From Anaeramoeba flamelloides (lineage: Eukaryota > Metamonada > Anaeramoebidae): 64,000 bases of DNA. Below, in pieces: positions 31,866 to 59,189 of the stretch. Under the pieces are notes generated by a model, which did not search any database, was not told where the DNA came from, and saw only the letters and a program-made list of their open reading frames with translations. Both the position numbers and the translations under genes were made by a program. Position 1 is the stretch's first letter, and each line of letters opens with the position of its first letter. The stretch is taken from contig JANTQA010000023.1 in the NCBI GenBank assembly GCA_027625915.1, positions 10,354,001 to 10,418,000 on the forward strand. Direction: 5' to 3'.

Positions 31866-32738
31866 TTTGTATTTTATTTTATTAAACTGTATTATCCTAT
31901 TTTCCAAAATTCTTTTTTTTTTTTTTTTTTATCTTTTCTTTGTTCCTTTTTAACTCATAATTATTATAAATAAAGTTATCGACAAGAAAAGTATATTTTT
32001 TTAAAGAAGAAAAATTAATTACAATTTCAATTTAATTTTTTTGATATCATTTTATTTTTTTAATCGAAAATCATCAACACCTCCAAAAATTCCAACAATA
32101 AAACATCTTTTATTCATAGTTTCAATTAAAATTTTCATAGCATATGGGACGAATATGTTTTTTTTTTTTGAAATTGTTGTTTTATTGGAAATAAATATGT
32201 AAATTTGATGAAAATATACCTTAAATCAAATCTTGATTTATTACTCATGTTCCGATTAACCATAAGAATTTTAACTGAAAATTGGAAAAAAAAAATAAAA
32301 TTATTTTTAATTATTTTTAATTTTATAAGTTTAAAAAATAAAATATGGTAATATTAATTAAAAAATGGAGCGCTTAGTTTCTTTTCTGAAGAATTGAATG
32401 AAATATATTCAAAAAAAAAATATATTAATTACAAGATTACTTTACTAAAAAAAGAAAAAAAAAATAACAAATTTTATTTTGGATAGAGAAGATAACAGAC
32501 AAGTAATTTTGAACATTTTTATTTATTATTGTATTCAATCATTCTCCCATAGAGGAGATGAGAGTGAGTTTTATTTCCCTTTCTTTTGTTTTTTCAAATA
32601 GGGTTTCTTCACACAAACAAATAATAAACTTGAATTTCTTTGATATTTTACAAATAACACATTGAAAGCGGTTCCCAGTTATTCATTTAATAATCACCAT
32701 TTCTATTTTGTATCAAAATATATTAACAATATTATTTG

Positions 32739-32928
32739 CAGTCATTTCCACTTTTAAGATACCAATGTTCAACGGAATATACTACGAAAAAATAACCTTA
32801 AATTAAAGCACAAAATTCGTATTTTAGTAAAATAATTTGTACGAAATAAAATTCAAAAAATGTACCTTGATTTGAATTTTTGTGTGCCTCAAATTTTGTT
32901 GAAAGTTTGTGTCTTAAAAGAAGAACTG
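32739..32928. mobile_element. MITE E, copy 1
   Basis: About 190 bp. Left end CAGTCATTTCCACTTTTAAG, right end GTTTGTGTCTTAAAAGAAGAACTG; both match the copy at 36939-37126, diverged. Confidence 0.75.
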
Positions 32929-33302
32929 ACTCGAAGAATCGTTAATTATCCACTAAATACCCCTTTAACTTTATTTTTCTCTGAGGGAAGTTATGTTAAA
33001 AATATATAGATATAACGATCATTAATGTGAATAGAATAGCCAGATTATCTTTCAATTGTTTATTTTTTTATGTTTTTCAAAATGAAAAGAAAAAAGAAAA
33101 AGAAAAAGAAAGAAATTTAAAGAGGATTGAAAATAAAAAATGTTTAAAATTTCAAAAAAAAAAAAAAATCATTTCGTTAAATAAGTACACTGAAAAACCA
33201 TATATATGATCCTATTTGTTAATTTAAGATTGATTTGACAATTAATCAGAGATTTCCATTTGATGTTAGTTGTTTAATGTTTATAAATTTTAATTTTTTG
33301 AT

Positions 33303-35827: not shown

Positions 35828-36938
35828 TTCGAAAAATATCATTTTCCTTTTCATGAAAATGTGAACTTCAGATATATTTTTTGATTGATTTAACTTTCAA
35901 CAACACTTGAAAAAAGTTTTTTTAATGTTTGAAAAATTCTTTTAATTTTCCGATACTAAATCAAAAATTTTAAATAATAATTTTATAAAGAATTATTCAC
36001 ACCTTGGGAAAATTAAGAGAGTAGCATATGTACTGAACTCTTAATGGTTGTTAAATCACTAAAAAACAATGAAATAAATGGTATATTTATTCTGAAATTT
36101 CAAAAAATCAAGTTTGTTTAATAGAATGTCACCAAGATCACATTTATTCTAGTATATAATATTTTTTAAAAATTGAAAAAAAAAAAAAAAAAATAATTTT
36201 AAATAAATCTAATATCAATATAAAACAACTTAACATGTTCTTTTCGATCGATTTCTAAAAATTAAAACTAAAAATTGATAATATTTTTCTTTAAAAATAG
36301 CCCAAAAATTGAATCCAATTTTCAATTTCTCGAATTTTTTGAATTATAATTTAGAAAAAAAATTTGTGATTTTTGAAGTATCTTAATTTCACACTTTTGG
36401 AGATCTTGAAGATTTTTTTTCATTTTTTTTTTTTTTTTTTCAAAAAGGTTATTTTTTTCTGAAAGAATAAATTAAAACACAAACTCTGTCAATTTTATAG
36501 TAATCAAAATTGATACTTATCCAATGACCATGAATTAAATTAATTTTTATCTACTTGAAAATTATTTGTTTTAAATTGTCGAACTCTAACAATTTGAAAA
36601 AAAAAAATAAAACAAGTAACAGTTTTTTTTCTATATTTTTTTTTCAGATTAGAAAAATATTCAAACTTTTTTTTTTATTTGTATTTTTTTTTGTATTGGG
36701 TTACATAGTAATTTTATTTATGTTATTTAAAATGTTCAAACTGAAAAAAATTCAATATTATATATTATTTTTGTGGTAAACCACTTCTTGGGTCTGGATC
36801 AACTTGTTGGAATTGAATATAAATATAAAAAAAAATAAATATATCTAAATTTGAATCAATAATATTTAGAAAAGTTTATAAAATGTAATTTTGAAAAATT
36901 ATAATTTGTATTTTTATCGAAATATTTTTGTATACCGT

Positions 36939-37126
36939 CAGTTCCACTTTTAAGTTACAAACTTTCAACAAAATTTAAGGTACAAAAAAATCTCAAATTA
37001 AGGCACAAAATTTGGAATTTTTTATATTACAATTTATTTTAATAGAATCTGAATTTTTTGCCTTAATTTGAGATTATTATGGTGCATTAAATTTCGTTGA
37101 AAGTTTGTGTCTTAAAAGTGGAACTG
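36939..37126. mobile_element. MITE E, copy 2 (best preserved)
   Basis: 188 bp with long inverted ends: CAGTTCCACTTTTAAG then ACAAACTTTCAACAAAATTT on the left, and GAAAGTTTGTGTCTTAAAAG then TGGAACTG on the right. TA dinucleotides sit 4-5 bases outside on each side. A degenerate end of the same family is at about 58330-58375. Confidence 0.88.
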
Positions 37127-38616
37127 AATGTAAAAGGAAAAAAACACAGTTTTTCAAAATAATTTATTTAAAAGTGTTTTTTTCAAGTATGAAAAAACAA
37201 TAATCCATGTTACTAAGCAAATTGATCAAAAATTCAGAGAATTAAAAATGGGAAAAAAATCAAAATTGCAAGATTTACTAATATTAGAATTTTTCAAACA
37301 CAATACAACACAAGAGGATGTTTTTTCTAAAAGAAAATAATAAAAAAGAAATTAAATTTCAAAAATGAAAAATTAAAGAACTATTTTTTTTGGCAACTGA
37401 ATTGAATGACACAAATTTATTTAGCTACTATAGTACTTGTAATAAAAAAAAAATTCTATAACAATTAGATATCAAAATTAAATCGAAAAAACTAAAATAA
37501 CAAAAGTGTGGAAAAATAATATTTTTTATTGTCTGGCTCAAGATCTAAAATAATTGGAATTTGAAATTTTTATAATCATATTTCAAGTAGCATTTGTTTT
37601 GTCATTAAGATCTTTCAATGCAATTTTTTTCTTTATTTATTTATTTATTTTTCCGAATTTTGTTTTGAAAAAATTGGAAAAGAACTTTTCAAAAAAAAAT
37701 GAAAGTTAAAAAAATCCAAAACTCCCAAGTTTTTGTTTTTATATTTACACAGGTGCTTTAAAACATTTCTTTTAGAAATAGAATGTTGTTTAAATATTTC
37801 AATAACATTAATATTAACTTGAAAAATATATACAAAAAGAGAATCTGTTTTTTCTGAGACTTGATAAAAAAATATGATTTTTTAAGTTGCTAAATTATCC
37901 ACATTTTTGTTGAGTATAATAATTTTTTAAAGATTTTTATATTATTACTTTTTTTAAAAAAAAAAAAGTCGAAAAAAAGTTCATCACATTTTTTAATAGG
38001 AAACACTTGTTGAAATGTCAAGTAAAATCAATTAAAAGAAGAAACCAATTTACTTAAAGAATAATTTATTTTATTATTATCAATTGAATCAACAATATAA
38101 CTTAATTTATATCTCCTTTTTTATATCAAAATCTAATAATTCGTTTTTGGAGATCCTCAAAAATAGTTAAATTTTTTCTACAATTTTTGTAATGGTAGAT
38201 CATTAAAATAAAAACCCCATATCTTAAAATTATATCAGAAAAACTATTGTTGTCTTTTACTTTTCATTTTGTCTATTATCCTAATTTGTTTTTTGATTAT
38301 TGGAGTTTACTTTTCATACCCAGTAAGGTGACCAAGTAAAAATCATCTTTAAATTGTTTTCCAATTTTGCCCTTTTATCCCAATAATCCTCTGTAACTGT
38401 GATTGCTTAATTTGTAAGTAATTTTTCATTTTTACATTTAAAATCCATGTTAATCTTAAAAATTACCTTAAAGAGTATAGGTTTATCAACACTTATGTTG
38501 TTTTATTGAAATCTAGATGTTGAAAACAACCTTAAAGAAATTTTTCATATTTTTTTTCTTTTTTTTTTCACCTTTTGTTCTTTTTTGGCCGTTATTGAAA
38601 TCTAAGCTCTAACGCC

Positions 38617-41478: not shown

Positions 41479-41751
41479 AGAAATTTTTAATTATAATCAT
41501 CAGAAGATTTTTGTGGGTTTAAAATTATATAATATTGAATTTTGTTTTTTATTTTTTTTTCATTTCATTTTTTTTTATACCCAAAAAAAAAAAATTACAA
41601 ATATTAATTTAAAAAATATAAATATATACACACATATATAAATAAATATCGTTTTATAATTTTAAAAATTATTATAACAATAAAAATTAAGAGTTTTTTA
41701 TTTTTTTCAATATGACATTTTATACAATTAAAGAACATGTTTTTATGAAAA

Positions 41752-42374
41752 TAAACTCTTTTTCAGTCAAAGGGGCCCAGTTTTATTGAAGAAATGGAAG
41801 ACATTCTATGAGTTTAATTCATTACTCTTATCAAACTAAAATTTTCAATTTTTAGATCAAAATCATTTTTTCTCATTTTGTCAATTTTTTATTTTTTGTT
41901 TTTTGCTTTTTGCTTTTTGCTTTTTTTTTTTTTTTATTTTTTTTTTTTTCTTTTTCTTGTTTTTGGTGTGATTTTCTTTTTCTTTTTCTTTTTTTTTTTT
42001 TTATATATTTTTTTAAAATTTTGATTTAAAAAAAAAATGTTTGAAAAAACAAATAAACATTAAGAAAAGTGAGACTTTGTATGTTCTTTTAAAATTCATA
42101 CATTTACAAGTAAATAATCTTATTGTCAACAATTTTAATTTCCGAATAAATTGAGAATTTTGCACGAGACGTTCCAAGGAATGGTGACCAAAAAATTTTT
42201 TAACATTTTTTTTTTTAAAATTTATGTTTTATTCAGGGTTTTCTTTTATAATTATCGACTCTTATATGAAGTTTATTATTTCTTGTATTTCTAAACAATC
42301 TAAGTTTGGTTGATTCTTAAAAATAAAGTGACTTTTTCATTTTTGGCTGGGGTACTTTTGGTGATAGGAGTTTA
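41752..42374 (+). mobile_element. Element F1, copy 1
   Basis: Starts TAAACTCTTTTTCAGTCAAA then GGGGCCCAG; ends with the diverged inverse (GGCTGGGGTAC...GGAGTTTA). Alignable with 49489-50050 along its whole length; longer (623 bp) because of expanded poly-T tracts at about 41900-42000. Non-coding. Confidence 0.85.
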
Positions 42375-49000: not shown

Positions 49001-50100
49001 TAAAGTTTTTTTTGGTCAAAGGTGCCCAACATTTTGTTCAAATATGAATTAATTTTTATAAATGAAACTTGAAGAAAAAATCTATATTTTATAAAATAAT
49101 AAACACTATAGGATATTTGATATTCTGTAAAAAGTAAAAAATAATAAATTAATATATTTTATTTCTAATTGAAAAACTCCAAATTCTTAGGAACCTATTG
49201 AGTCAAACAAAAATATTGATTTTAATGTTCCAATTGAAGATCAAATAACATTCCAAGAGAAAACAATTTGATTTCTATACAATCATTTTAACTGATTCTA
49301 AACCATAGAATAACACCTTTTTACGTAGTGGCTATTGATCGTCTAATAAAAAAAAAAGTAATTGGATTAAATGTCAAAAGAAAATCAAAACAATAACAAA
49401 AAAAAATACAAAATTATGAAAAAATGATTGCATTTTTGGAAATTTTTGAAATTAATTTTTCTTCCAATATCAACTCAATCCCTTTAAATAAACTCTTTTT
49501 CAGTCAAATGGGCCAGTTTTATTGAATAAATAGAATAATTCTATGATTTTAATCCATTATTCTTCTTAAATTAAATTTTCAATTTTTAGATCAAAAAAAT
49601 TTTTTCTCATTTTTATAAAATTTTTTTGTATTTTGCATTTTACTTTTTTTTTTTTTTTCTTCTTTTCTTTTTCGATTTTTTTTTTAAAAATTAAATTTGA
49701 AAAAAAAATTTTTTGAAACTCCAAATTAACATTAAGAAAAGTTAGGCTTTGTATTTTCTTAAAAAATTCAAACATTTACTAGTAAAAAATATTATTGTCA
49801 ACAATTTTAATTTCCGAAAGAAATTGAGAAATTTTGCAGGAGACTTTCCAATGAAAAGGCCTAAAATTTTTTTTCCCTTTTATTTTTTTTTGAAATCTAT
49901 GGTTTTTTCAGGCTTTTATTTTATGATTATCGGCTCTAATACGGATTTTATTATTTCTCGTATTTCTAAACAATCTAAGTTTCGTTTTATTTGAAAAATA
50001 AAGTAACTTTTTCATTTTTGACTGGGACCCTTTGAGTGTAATGGAGTTTACAAGTAATTCACTCATAACAACTGAGAAACTTTGACACGAAAATGGTTTA
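49001..50100 (+). mobile_element. Element F2, copy 1, interrupted by F1
   Basis: Left part 49001-49488 (TAAAG...GGTCAAAGGTGCCCAAC start) and right part 50051-50100 (ending AACTTTGACACGAAAATGGT then TTA) align to the F2 copy at 50641-51333. The F1 element at 49489-50050 sits between them. Confidence 0.85.
49489..50050 (+). mobile_element. Element F1, copy 2, nested in F2
   Basis: 562 bp. Starts TAAACTCTTTTTCAGTCAAA and ends CTTTGAGTGTAATGGAGTTTA, an inverted match, with TA at both outer edges. Alignable over its length with 41752-42374 and, inverted, with 56203-56763. Non-coding. Confidence 0.9.
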
Positions 50101-56202: not shown

Positions 56203-56763
56203 TACTCCATTTCAGTCAAAGTGTTACTGCGAAAATTAATATAGTACTTTATTTTTAAGAATCAACCAAACTTGTATTGTTTATAAATACAAACAATAAT
56301 AAATTTCTTATCGGTGTCAATAATCCTAGAAGAAAAGTCTGAACAAACCATATATTTCAAAAAAAAAATGTTAAAAAAATTTTTTGGCTCATTTTCTTGG
56401 AACATCTCCTGCAAAATTCTCAATTTATTGAGTAAATTAAAATTGTTCACAATAAGATTTTTTACTTGAAAATGCATGAATTTTAAAAGAATATTAAAAG
56501 CCTCACTTTTCTTAATGTTAATTTGGAGTTTCAAACATTTTTTTTTCAAATTTGATTTTAAAAAAATAACTAAAAAGAAATAAAAAAAGAAAGAAAAAAA
56601 AGGAAAAAGCAAAATACAAAAAAAAAAAAAATTTATAGAATGAGAAAAAATTTTTTTGATCTAAAAATTGAAAATTTAGTTTGAGAAGAATAATGGATTA
56701 AACTCATAGAATATGTTCTATTTCTTCAATAAAACTGTGCCCCTTTGAATAAAAAAGAGTTTA
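56203..56763 (-). mobile_element. Element F1, copy 3 (inverted)
   Basis: 561 bp, reverse-oriented relative to the copies at 41.8 and 49.5 kb. Starts ACTCCATTTCAGTCAAAGTG and ends GTGCCCCTTTGAATAAAAAA then GAGTTTA. Internal features such as AAAAGTGAGGCTTTT on the minus strand match the other copies. The 116-codon minus ORF inside is not a gene. Confidence 0.88.
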
Positions 56764-56795
56764 TATATATAAATTAAATTTGAAAAATAATATAA

Positions 56796-57987
56796 TAGAG
56801 GTTTTGATGATAACATATATTATCATGATATTAACAATAAAATCGCGATAATATTAAAAATCGTGATTAGTCCAACTTTATCGCGATATTCAACATTATC
56901 GCGAAAAAATGAAAAATTATTTTTTTGAGATTACCTTAAAAAAATCTCTTGACTTTTACAACACTTTCCCCTTTAATAAATGTTTGAAAGGGTTTGTACG
57001 GGTTGTGTGCTGTCTTCCAGTGTTTGAAAGTTTTGAAAGACATAAAGTTTTGGTAAAGACCATGACTTTGGTTTGTTCTGGAAAAAAAATTTTTTTCATT
57101 ATTTTTTTTAAAATATAAAATCTCAAACAAATTTTATGATCAAACTAATAATTACCCATTCTAACAATATAATTGAATATAAGATAGATGTGTTTTCTTA
57201 CAATGGAGTTGTTACATTCACAATTTTAAATAGCAAAAAAGAATAAAGAATAATTTTCCTTCTTATTGGTGATCGATCAAACAAAAACCTCTAAGCTCTA
57301 ATTGAGTTTTCTTTACAAAACAAAGATGCTCAAAGAAGAAAAAGAACAGGTTGACAAATCTATAAAAAATCTTATTAATTGGTGATCATCTGACAAGGAT
57401 TTCGTGAAAGCTAATGAAAAGTTACCAACTCCTTTTAGCTTTCTGAAAATATTGAAAATCTTTTAACCCAAGAACACATTCTTTAAAGAACGGACGAAGG
57501 GTTGGTTGTTCTAGAAGGTCTTTCATTCAACTCAATTTACAACACCACGATTAACTGAGAAAAAATTTATTTCTATTTATTTCTTATTGTTGTTGTTGAT
57601 CTTAAAGGATCAATAGGTTTGACAACCAAATAAAATGAAAATACAATAAAACTCTTTGATCTGATCCTTGATTGAATCAAGTATCGTTTTTGTTATTTTT
57701 TTAAAGAATAACTTTTAATCACATAATCTTTTTTTTTCGATCAAAAAAAATTTTTTTTTTAAAATATTTCTCAATTAACCCAAAAACCCATCAACTATTT
57801 TATCGCGATTACTTTTTAATCGCGATATTTTGGCATTTATCGCGATTTTATAGAATTATCACGATTTTTTATATTATCGCAATAATATTGAATATCGCGA
57901 TTTTCTGATATTATCGCGATTTGATTGAAATTATCGCTATTTTTATAACTTTATCGTGAATTATTCATGTTATCATCAAAACATCTA
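56796..57987. mobile_element. 1.2-kb DNA element with TATCGCGATA subterminal boxes
   Basis: Terminal inverted repeats TAGAGGTTTTGATGATAACA-T (56796-56816) and its complement (57967-57987), 20 of 21 matched. Inside each end lie clustered palindromic boxes TATCGCGATA and one-mismatch variants: three to four at 56841-56905, and nine at about 57800-57960, spaced roughly 16-20 bases. The interior (about 57300-57570) is GC-richer and looks like broken coding sequence. This is the layout of a DNA transposon with subterminal transposase-binding sites. Superfamily not assigned; a TA target duplication is possible. Confidence 0.8.
57302..57580 (+). pseudogene. Possible decayed ORF inside the TATCGCGATA element
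   Basis: The frame through 57327 gives hydrophilic protein-like runs (MLKEEKEQVDKSIKNLINW; SSDKDFVKANEKLPTPFSFL; PKNTFFKERTKGWLF) separated by single TGA, TAA and TAG codons. Fewer stops than expected for such AT-rich DNA, so it may be a transposase remnant. No family can be named. Confidence 0.25.
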
Positions 57988-58329
57988 ATAAAACAAGTTT
58001 TTTTTTTGCCTATTTTTTATTTTGGGCATGTCAAAAATTTTGGAATGGGGTTTATATATATGACACCAATAGAAAAAATATTATATATATATATATATAT
58101 AATCCAATGGTTCTCTATTTTAAAAATTTAAATAAAAAAAACGAACCTATAAGTAAAAATAAAATAAAAAGTCAAATAATATCAATTTGAAACATTTAAA
58201 TTAATAAATTGTACATTCAAAAGCTCCAAATTGTAAAATAATACGATTAGTGGAAAATAAAACAATTATAGTATAACAATTTTTGTAAAAAAATAATTCC
58301 AAAAAATTTGTATTAAATTTAGATTTTTT

Positions 58330-58375
58330 AAAACCTTAAATTTCATTCAAAGTTTGTGCATTTAAAGTGAAACTG
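58330..58375. mobile_element. MITE E, degenerate right end
   Basis: ACCTTAAATTTCATTCAAAG followed by TTTGTGCATTTAAAGTGAAACTG, matching the right end of 36939-37126. The left end was not found. Confidence 0.5.
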
Positions 58376-59189
58376 GCTCTATAATGCAAAATTCTTTTCA
58401 TATAAATTGTTTCTTCATTTGATTTCTTTTTTTTACGTTTAGGTTAATATTCCCAATTAAAAATTTTGTTTAAGGCTCTATTAATTTACAGTGAATTTGT
58501 TCCCTATTTATAATGTGACTTAAAAACAAAAGGGGTTTTATGAAATTAATTTACTTATCATTGGCAAAATTTTTTTAACAAAAAAAAAAAAATATCAAAT
58601 ACTCGAAATTAGAAAAAAAGAATTTGTAAAAAAAAAAATAATCAGTATTCTCAATCTTAAAAGATTAAAATCACAAAAAAAAATAATATATACTTATTTG
58701 ATATTTCGCAAAGGGTAGTTTTTGTTATTGAATACAAGATATATTCTTAAAGTTAAAAAATCGATTTTATTTGATTTAATCTATTTTTCTGTTAATTTAT
58801 AAACCACTAAATTGAGAAAGCAGTGTCGTGAGTTTATATTTATCTATCGAATAAAAAAAAATCTTTTAAAAAGTGAAAAAAACCAAAAAAAAATTCTTAA
58901 TTTATCTCAAAATATTATAAAGATTACACTTCAAAACTCTTAAAAAAATATGGTATATTCAAATTTTTTATTTATTAGAATTCAAATTAGTAATTGAGTG
59001 CCAATATTTGCCCCCCCTCTTTCCAGTAAAGTATCTGGTTTTTTTATTCATTTTTTTTAGAAATTTTTGGAACACTCTATTCCAATTGTTTTTAATTGAT
59101 AATAGATTGTAACATAAAAATTGACAAAATTATTTTTTTTTAAATTAAAAAAAAATAATTTTCCATGGAAAACAGATTATTTAAGGTTT

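Follow-up and report, generated by a model that had tools for sequence, protein, structure and literature searches.

A high-copy non-autonomous transposon family with ANT target duplications and terminal palindrome arrays in Anaeramoeba flamelloides

Pangu transposons are described with an ANT target duplication and with ends of 11-40 bp that usually start with AG or GG (PMC4482050). In the same account they are placed next to IS5, which is given the same ANT site (PMC4482050). The element analysed here shares with Pangu a 3-bp ANT duplication, found in 26 of 30 copies and accompanied by clean empty sites, and an end starting AGAGG, whose 20 bp lie within the described 11-40 bp range (PMC4482050). 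The transposases of relatives resident in the same genome are IS5-related as well. There are also differences to Pangu. The Pangu candidates are about 3.5 kb long and mostly have two open frames (PMC4482050), whereas the resident families A and B measure 1.45 and 1.82 kb and show one transposase gene. The available part of the Pangu account describes no palindrome arrays, and metamonads are absent from the host list given there (PMC4482050). A further difference is that our element has no transposase.

Several better known transposons resemble the element in single features. The likeness to Ac/Ds, En/Spm and Tol2 lies in the short motif arrays near both ends, since in these transposons repeated short motifs near both ends are transposase binding sites; their superfamilies have other duplications and motifs than our element. 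PIF/Harbinger transposons in the strict sense duplicate TWA, whereas the target here is ANT. The ends of TBE elements carry telomere-like repeats, unlike those of our element. Like non-autonomous MITE-like transposons in general, the element combines inverted repeats, a target duplication and many copies with the lack of any coding sign, although 1.2 kb is long for a MITE. Within IS5, the ANT site belongs to the ISL2 subgroup. The TV in Harbinger-4_TV stands for Trichomonas vaginalis, which is a metamonad like Anaeramoeba. As described, Harbinger-4_TV groups with bacterial IS5 and not with the eukaryotic groups, and no distinct target duplication was found for it; going by this description, the resident transposases found here show the same IS5 likeness (PMC4482050). 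Bacterial IS5 has the same ANT site as the element (PMC4482050). Tourist-type MITEs of PIF/Harbinger such as mPing are also non-autonomous, of high copy number and presumably moved by a PHIS-type enzyme (PMC2836001). The Oxytricha TBE elements, which belong to Tc1/mariner, are reported to be ANT-flanked and thus have this duplication in common with our element (PMC12242761); their transposase class would differ. An ANT target alone therefore does not decide the class.

With a probability of about 75%, we suggest that the element belongs to a non-autonomous family which is moved in trans by an IS5-related, ANT-targeting DDE transposase of the PHIS (Pangu/IS5-like) type. Having no transposase of its own, the element would fall into the IS5/PHIS-like class by its ANT target and its AGAG end. 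We place it with IS5-type relatives because these two features accompany IS5-type transposases in the resident families A and B.

Limits, copies and target site of the element

The window, by which we mean the whole 64-kb stretch that was analysed (C24:10354001-10418000), lies within the 254-Mb, 76-contig genome of A. flamelloides and has a G+C content of 18-34% when followed in 2-kb steps. A GAA1-like protein encoded in it shares 89% identity with an A. flamelloides protein. The element spans positions 56797-57986 (1,190 bp) and is flanked by AAT on each side. Its terminal inverted repeats are 20 bp long and identical at 19 of 20 positions, with AGAGGTTTTGATGATAACAT on the left and AGATGTTTTGATGATAACAT on the right (both read inward). 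The initial annotation had described a 21-bp repeat (20/21) bounding 1,192 bp; the inverted repeat itself stands, but those limits included one flanking base per side. The features are as follows.

56794..56796, no strand: left copy of the target duplication, AAT (by the ANT rule from 30 copies)
56797..57986, plus strand: non-autonomous DNA transposon of 1,190 bp, interior without coding sign (from the ends and the family copies)
56797..56816, plus strand: left terminal inverted repeat, 20 bp, AGAGGTTTTGATGATAACAT (end comparison)
56821..56906, no strand: left box array, four boxes within two mismatches of TATCGCGATA (starts 56821, 56841, 56879, 56897)
57801..57941, no strand: right box array, eight boxes within two mismatches of TATCGCGATA (starts 57801, 57818, 57838, 57857, 57875, 57893, 57912, 57932)
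57967..57986, minus strand: right terminal inverted repeat, 19/20 against the left (end comparison)
57987..57989, no strand: right copy of the target duplication, AAT (flank comparison)

The surroundings of the element contain other repeats. Within the 500 bp searched on the left, positions 56297-56767 form a repeat that recurs at 41742-42278 and 49485-49953 of the window and at six other loci. Another short and frequent element, about 200 bp long and bounded by inverted ends that begin with ACAGTCAGTTCCACTTTTAAG, is found in the window at 36934-37131 and 32738-32931 and also in L056, L032, L033 and other loci, and there is a partial match to it at 58265-58382.

A genome search with the element end, which the initial annotation had proposed as a check, reveals many other copies. 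The 19-bp end pattern has 1,471 matches in the genome at up to two mismatches, against 3 for the reversed control, from which we infer a family of about 700 copies if most ends are paired. The 40 BLAST candidates scored, out of 2,484, are mostly full length and 85-91% identical to the window copy. The same family is present in all 20 ten-kb loci chosen at matches to the terminal repeat, with 70-89% identity and a few partial copies; these loci were mostly matches without a listed partner on C1 and therefore lean to older copies. At the young end, 21 close copies are 94.4-98.0% identical to their own majority. In a set of 32 copies, each has its closest neighbour at a distance of 0.026 to 0.25, and the older members mostly branch off a single backbone in succession. 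This looks like the long-lasting multiplication of one non-coding lineage of about 1.2 kb, young members included.

Four of the ten-kb loci (L031, L036, L038 and L048) contain longer copies, which look like insertions or rearrangements. Their additional DNA was examined in L031, L038 and L048 and has no open frame above 101 aa. Family end pairs 2.2-2.5 kb apart at C13:11072154-11074638, C13:593457-595976 and C33:7670847-7673070 could be nested insertions or longer members. We additionally observed near-perfect left ends sharing the variant CGCAATAA (C51:1212826, C24:5653325, C30:627517, C37:12200596 and others), several of which have no right end among the matches listed (100 of 130). A viral origin was considered and rejected, as the 20-bp end AGAKGTTTTGATGATAACAT has no exact match in viral_contigs. 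One exact match in a Nitrosopumilaceae bin, where the second end and the boxes are absent, was taken as chance.

The target duplication was read from 30 of 41 sources, the other 11 having no end pair (up to 3 mismatches, up to 3 kb) with flanks. Position -4 is A, -2 is T and +2 is A in all 30 copies, and 29 of them have T at +4. The left and right flanks show an identical ANT triplet in 26/30: their middle bases agree in 87%, against 45% expected, and no other pair of positions comes near. The middle bases differ in the remaining four copies (L013, L018, L032, L046). One pair is ACT/ACT, and in the row for L031 the two ends are separated by 2.2 kb. An outer T and an outer A, each present in 22/30 copies, are a target preference, not part of the duplication. 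A 5-bp duplication (TAWTA) was rejected because the outer pairs agree no more often than expected (-5/+1, 0.70 against 0.71; -1/+5, 0.67 against 0.69). A duplication of TA only would leave the -3/+3 agreement unexplained, and a 3-bp duplication is consistent with the clean empty sites.

These empty sites are paralogous. The insertion in L024 lies in a repeat that occurs in L029 without the element and with a single ATT (92.1% identity over 164 columns). For L017 there are two such counterparts with a single AAT, one in L031 (78.5%) and one in the window (76.1%). Three of 11 comparisons were clean, covering two of three insertions (L024 and L017), while four comparisons for L036 and four of the five for L024 had gapped junctions and were thus uninformative. 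The target duplications and the empty sites, both of which had been named as tests of the initial annotation, thereby speak for transposition.

Palindrome arrays at the two ends

The picture of a DNA transposon with palindrome arrays at its two ends only is borne out by the boxes themselves as well as by the copies, duplications and empty sites. All nine boxes that match TATCGCGATA with at most one mismatch in the 64-kb window lie within the element, whereas shuffled sequences give a mean of 0.42 and a maximum of 4. When two mismatches are allowed the window contains 28 boxes (shuffle mean 10.1), of which 12 are inside the element, four at the left end, eight at the right end and none in the middle. 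Compared with the majority sequence of 21 copies, the window copy lacks one exact TATCGCGATA at the left. A scan of all 256 palindromic 8-mers over the two 300-bp ends gives ATCGCGAT as the strongest, with 12 matches at up to one mismatch against 0.61 expected (z 11.6; the largest z of any palindrome over 150 shuffles was 4.9), and with no match in the 590-bp middle. TCGCGA does not occur in the remaining 62.6 kb of the window, where mononucleotide shuffling would lead us to expect 2.1.

The arrangement of the boxes suggests that they may be transposase-binding sites. Their conservation is weak support at most for this, since most changes arose after insertion. Among 32 copies the substitutions per site amount to 0.075 for the inner eight box bases, 0.082 for the spacers and 0.078 for the interior, compared with 0.035 for the outer box bases and 0.030 for the terminal repeats. 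In per-letter counts, A and T vary less inside the boxes (0.038, 0.027) than elsewhere in the element (0.058, 0.062). The inner bases are no better conserved over all letters because the CpG letters vary like other C and G. The literature that mentions TATCGCGATA, in the parts available, concerns other matters.

Resident IS5-like families and the source of the transposase

The genome contains 26 matches to DDE_Tnp_4, and both of the IS5-like families with this domain that we read resemble the element in their AGAG ends and in duplicating ANT. Family A (L051-L053; on C70, C37 and C26) is 1.44-1.45 kb long, with a copy at 710-2151 of L051, and has a single open stretch of 266-301 aa and ends starting AGAGAT. 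Its flanks are AAT/AAT in L052 and L053 and AAT/AAA in L051. The protein matches the IS5 transposase model over residues 22-265 of 266 with E 3.8e-15 and 56 bits, which falls short of the cut-off of 140 for naming. DDE_Tnp_1 and DDE_Tnp_4 also match it, and it is 28% identical to plasmid-borne, IS5-like ISMae4 (97% covered, E 2e-20), whose ends (L058) are too weak for an end comparison. The transposase in L051 is 100% identical to the A. flamelloides protein M0812_27844 over 95% of its length. Boxes of the type TTACGTAA stand at both ends of family A (9-10 against 0.5-0.7 expected, z 7.9-8.8) and are absent from its middle.

Family B (L050, 1085-2905) is 1.82 kb long, again with ends starting AGAGAT, and the single copy read is flanked by AGT/AGT. 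This copy lies within another repeat, which elsewhere continues across the site, overlapping by 3 bp (C17:651414-652412 and 651218-651416 are an example). An intron-like gap divides the coding part of family B into two open stretches, of 229 and 164 aa. The most frequent enriched palindrome is TTCATGAA, whose z of 4.4 is below the shuffle maximum of 4.9, and CGAGCTCG reaches z 5.2 with two matches only. Family A resembles bacterial IS5 in its nearly full-length match to the IS5 model and its IS-like size, whereas the setting here differs in the eukaryote nuclear genome, the intron-like gap of family B, the subterminal arrays and a many-copy non-coding derivative. Also scattered over the genome are short stretches that match an IS5-type transposase in its C-terminal third (C26:8573458, C48:19754839, C57:1911438, C17:1479535, C70:11919406, C61:2271425, C33:251170, C24:20928745, C37:9327507), and these are perhaps internally deleted derivatives of other families.

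The partner transposase was looked for directly. In seven scanned loci of L050-L057 no transposase locus has the ends of the element at up to four mismatches, and in the eighth (L057, a 661-base flank of family C), read by eye, the element end was not seen. Boxes within two mismatches of TATCGCGATA were found in only one of the five loci L050, L051, L054, L055 and L056, namely two single ones in L051. The family A protein has 52 matches in the genome, P0018 has 76 and the second stretch of family B has 26, and each of the 11 matches to DDE_Tnp_1 falls at a DDE_Tnp_4 place. The reading covers L050-L057, with C13:15888315, C26:8277464, C24:15774452, C9:12686617, C34:6408658, C64:1897818, C68:44975, the 5' side of C17:2243732 and short C-terminal P0018 fragments outside it. 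When 50 places of DDE_Tnp_4 type and 150 of DDE_3 were compared with 340 listed ends or copies (40 BLAST places, together with listed ends numbering 100 of 1,471, 100 of 130 and 100 of 340), the nearest transposase places among the matches listed were on C32, at 1.3 kb, and on C64, at 3.3 kb, each next to a complete copy. The partner might be lost, might be unsampled, or might be a resident relative acting across families.

The last of these would mean that the element lacks a dedicated partner and depends for its mobilisation on the transposase of family B, or of family C. We regard this as possible, if doubtful. Family B is young, as six other full-length copies are 97-99% identical, it has its two open stretches, and among L050-L057 we saw no dedicated partner. 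The left end of family B agrees with the element in 11 of the first 14 bases. This is a modest excess, because its right end agrees in only 8, and the ends of family A, which also start with AGAG, in 8 and 9. The boxes of family B would moreover be TTCATGAA and not TATCGCGATA, and their enrichment is weak.

The arrays might have another role altogether, being bound by a host protein or serving as methylation targets. An exact TATCGCGATA box contains two CpG, and the C and G of box CpGs show 0.092 and 0.104 transitions per site, against 0.057 and 0.069 for non-CpG C and G outside the boxes. We nevertheless consider such a role unlikely, as the arrays are confined to the two ends and the boxes of family A, which have another palindrome, are just as terminal. 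That the terminal palindromes differ, TTACGTAA in A and TATCGCGATA here, suits a family-specific recognition.

It is a little less likely still that a transposase of the Tc1/mariner, TBE kind mobilises the element in place of an IS5-type enzyme. The ANT flanks reported for TBE would fit (PMC12242761), and DDE_3 has at least 150 matches in the genome (150 of 268 candidates scored). Yet both resident families that combine AGAG with ANT and whose ends were read are of IS5 type, and among the matches listed all 150 DDE_3 places are 3.3 kb or more away from the 340 ends or copies.

The interior shows no sign of coding, and the coding-like stretch noted in the initial annotation was not confirmed. 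Over 57200-57640, the substitution rates at the three codon positions are 0.033, 0.040 and 0.040 among 22 copies, which is no codon periodicity, and of the 28 indels in this stretch 22 have a length that three does not divide. In the 21 close copies no open frame exceeds 115 aa and the longest ones do not share a position, and the transposases of A and B find nothing above chance in 32 copies by tblastn (best E 0.94). The best reading of the open frames, the codon periodicity and the tblastn search is a non-autonomous, MITE-like element; the initial proposal of a decayed autonomous copy, for which the interior of about 900 bp might speak by its length, is highly improbable in view of the short frames, the frame-shifting indels and the chance-level tblastn result.

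Possible mechanism and meaning

Movement in trans by an IS5-related transposase would most likely proceed as follows. A dimer or multimer of the transposase would bind the 20-bp ends starting with AGAG together with the TATCGCGATA arrays, where each palindrome is probably occupied by a dimer. The bound transposase would then bring the ends together and cut the element out. Insertion at T-ANT-A with a 3-bp stagger would lead to the duplication of ANT.

The high-copy non-autonomous family, with its young and old members, is real and of a known kind. It adds an ANT-targeting group of apparently IS5/Pangu-like transposons, and a large non-autonomous family, to a metamonad genome. In the literature searched, including the available part of the genome paper (PMC11550330), we found no account of Anaeramoeba transposons. 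The families found here lead to a broader, still tentative hypothesis. They might form an IS5-sized lineage with a single transposase gene, in which each family has its own end-array palindrome (TTACGTAA in A, TATCGCGATA here and perhaps TTCATGAA in B) and the DNA-binding part of the transposase recognises this palindrome and co-evolves with it, and the TATCGCGATA family might have kept multiplying partnerless, with copies from about 25% to about 3% apart. To our knowledge, family-specific palindrome arrays at both ends are known from no IS5/PHIS element. Sister families with different palindromes would permit testing how a DDE transposase changes its binding site.
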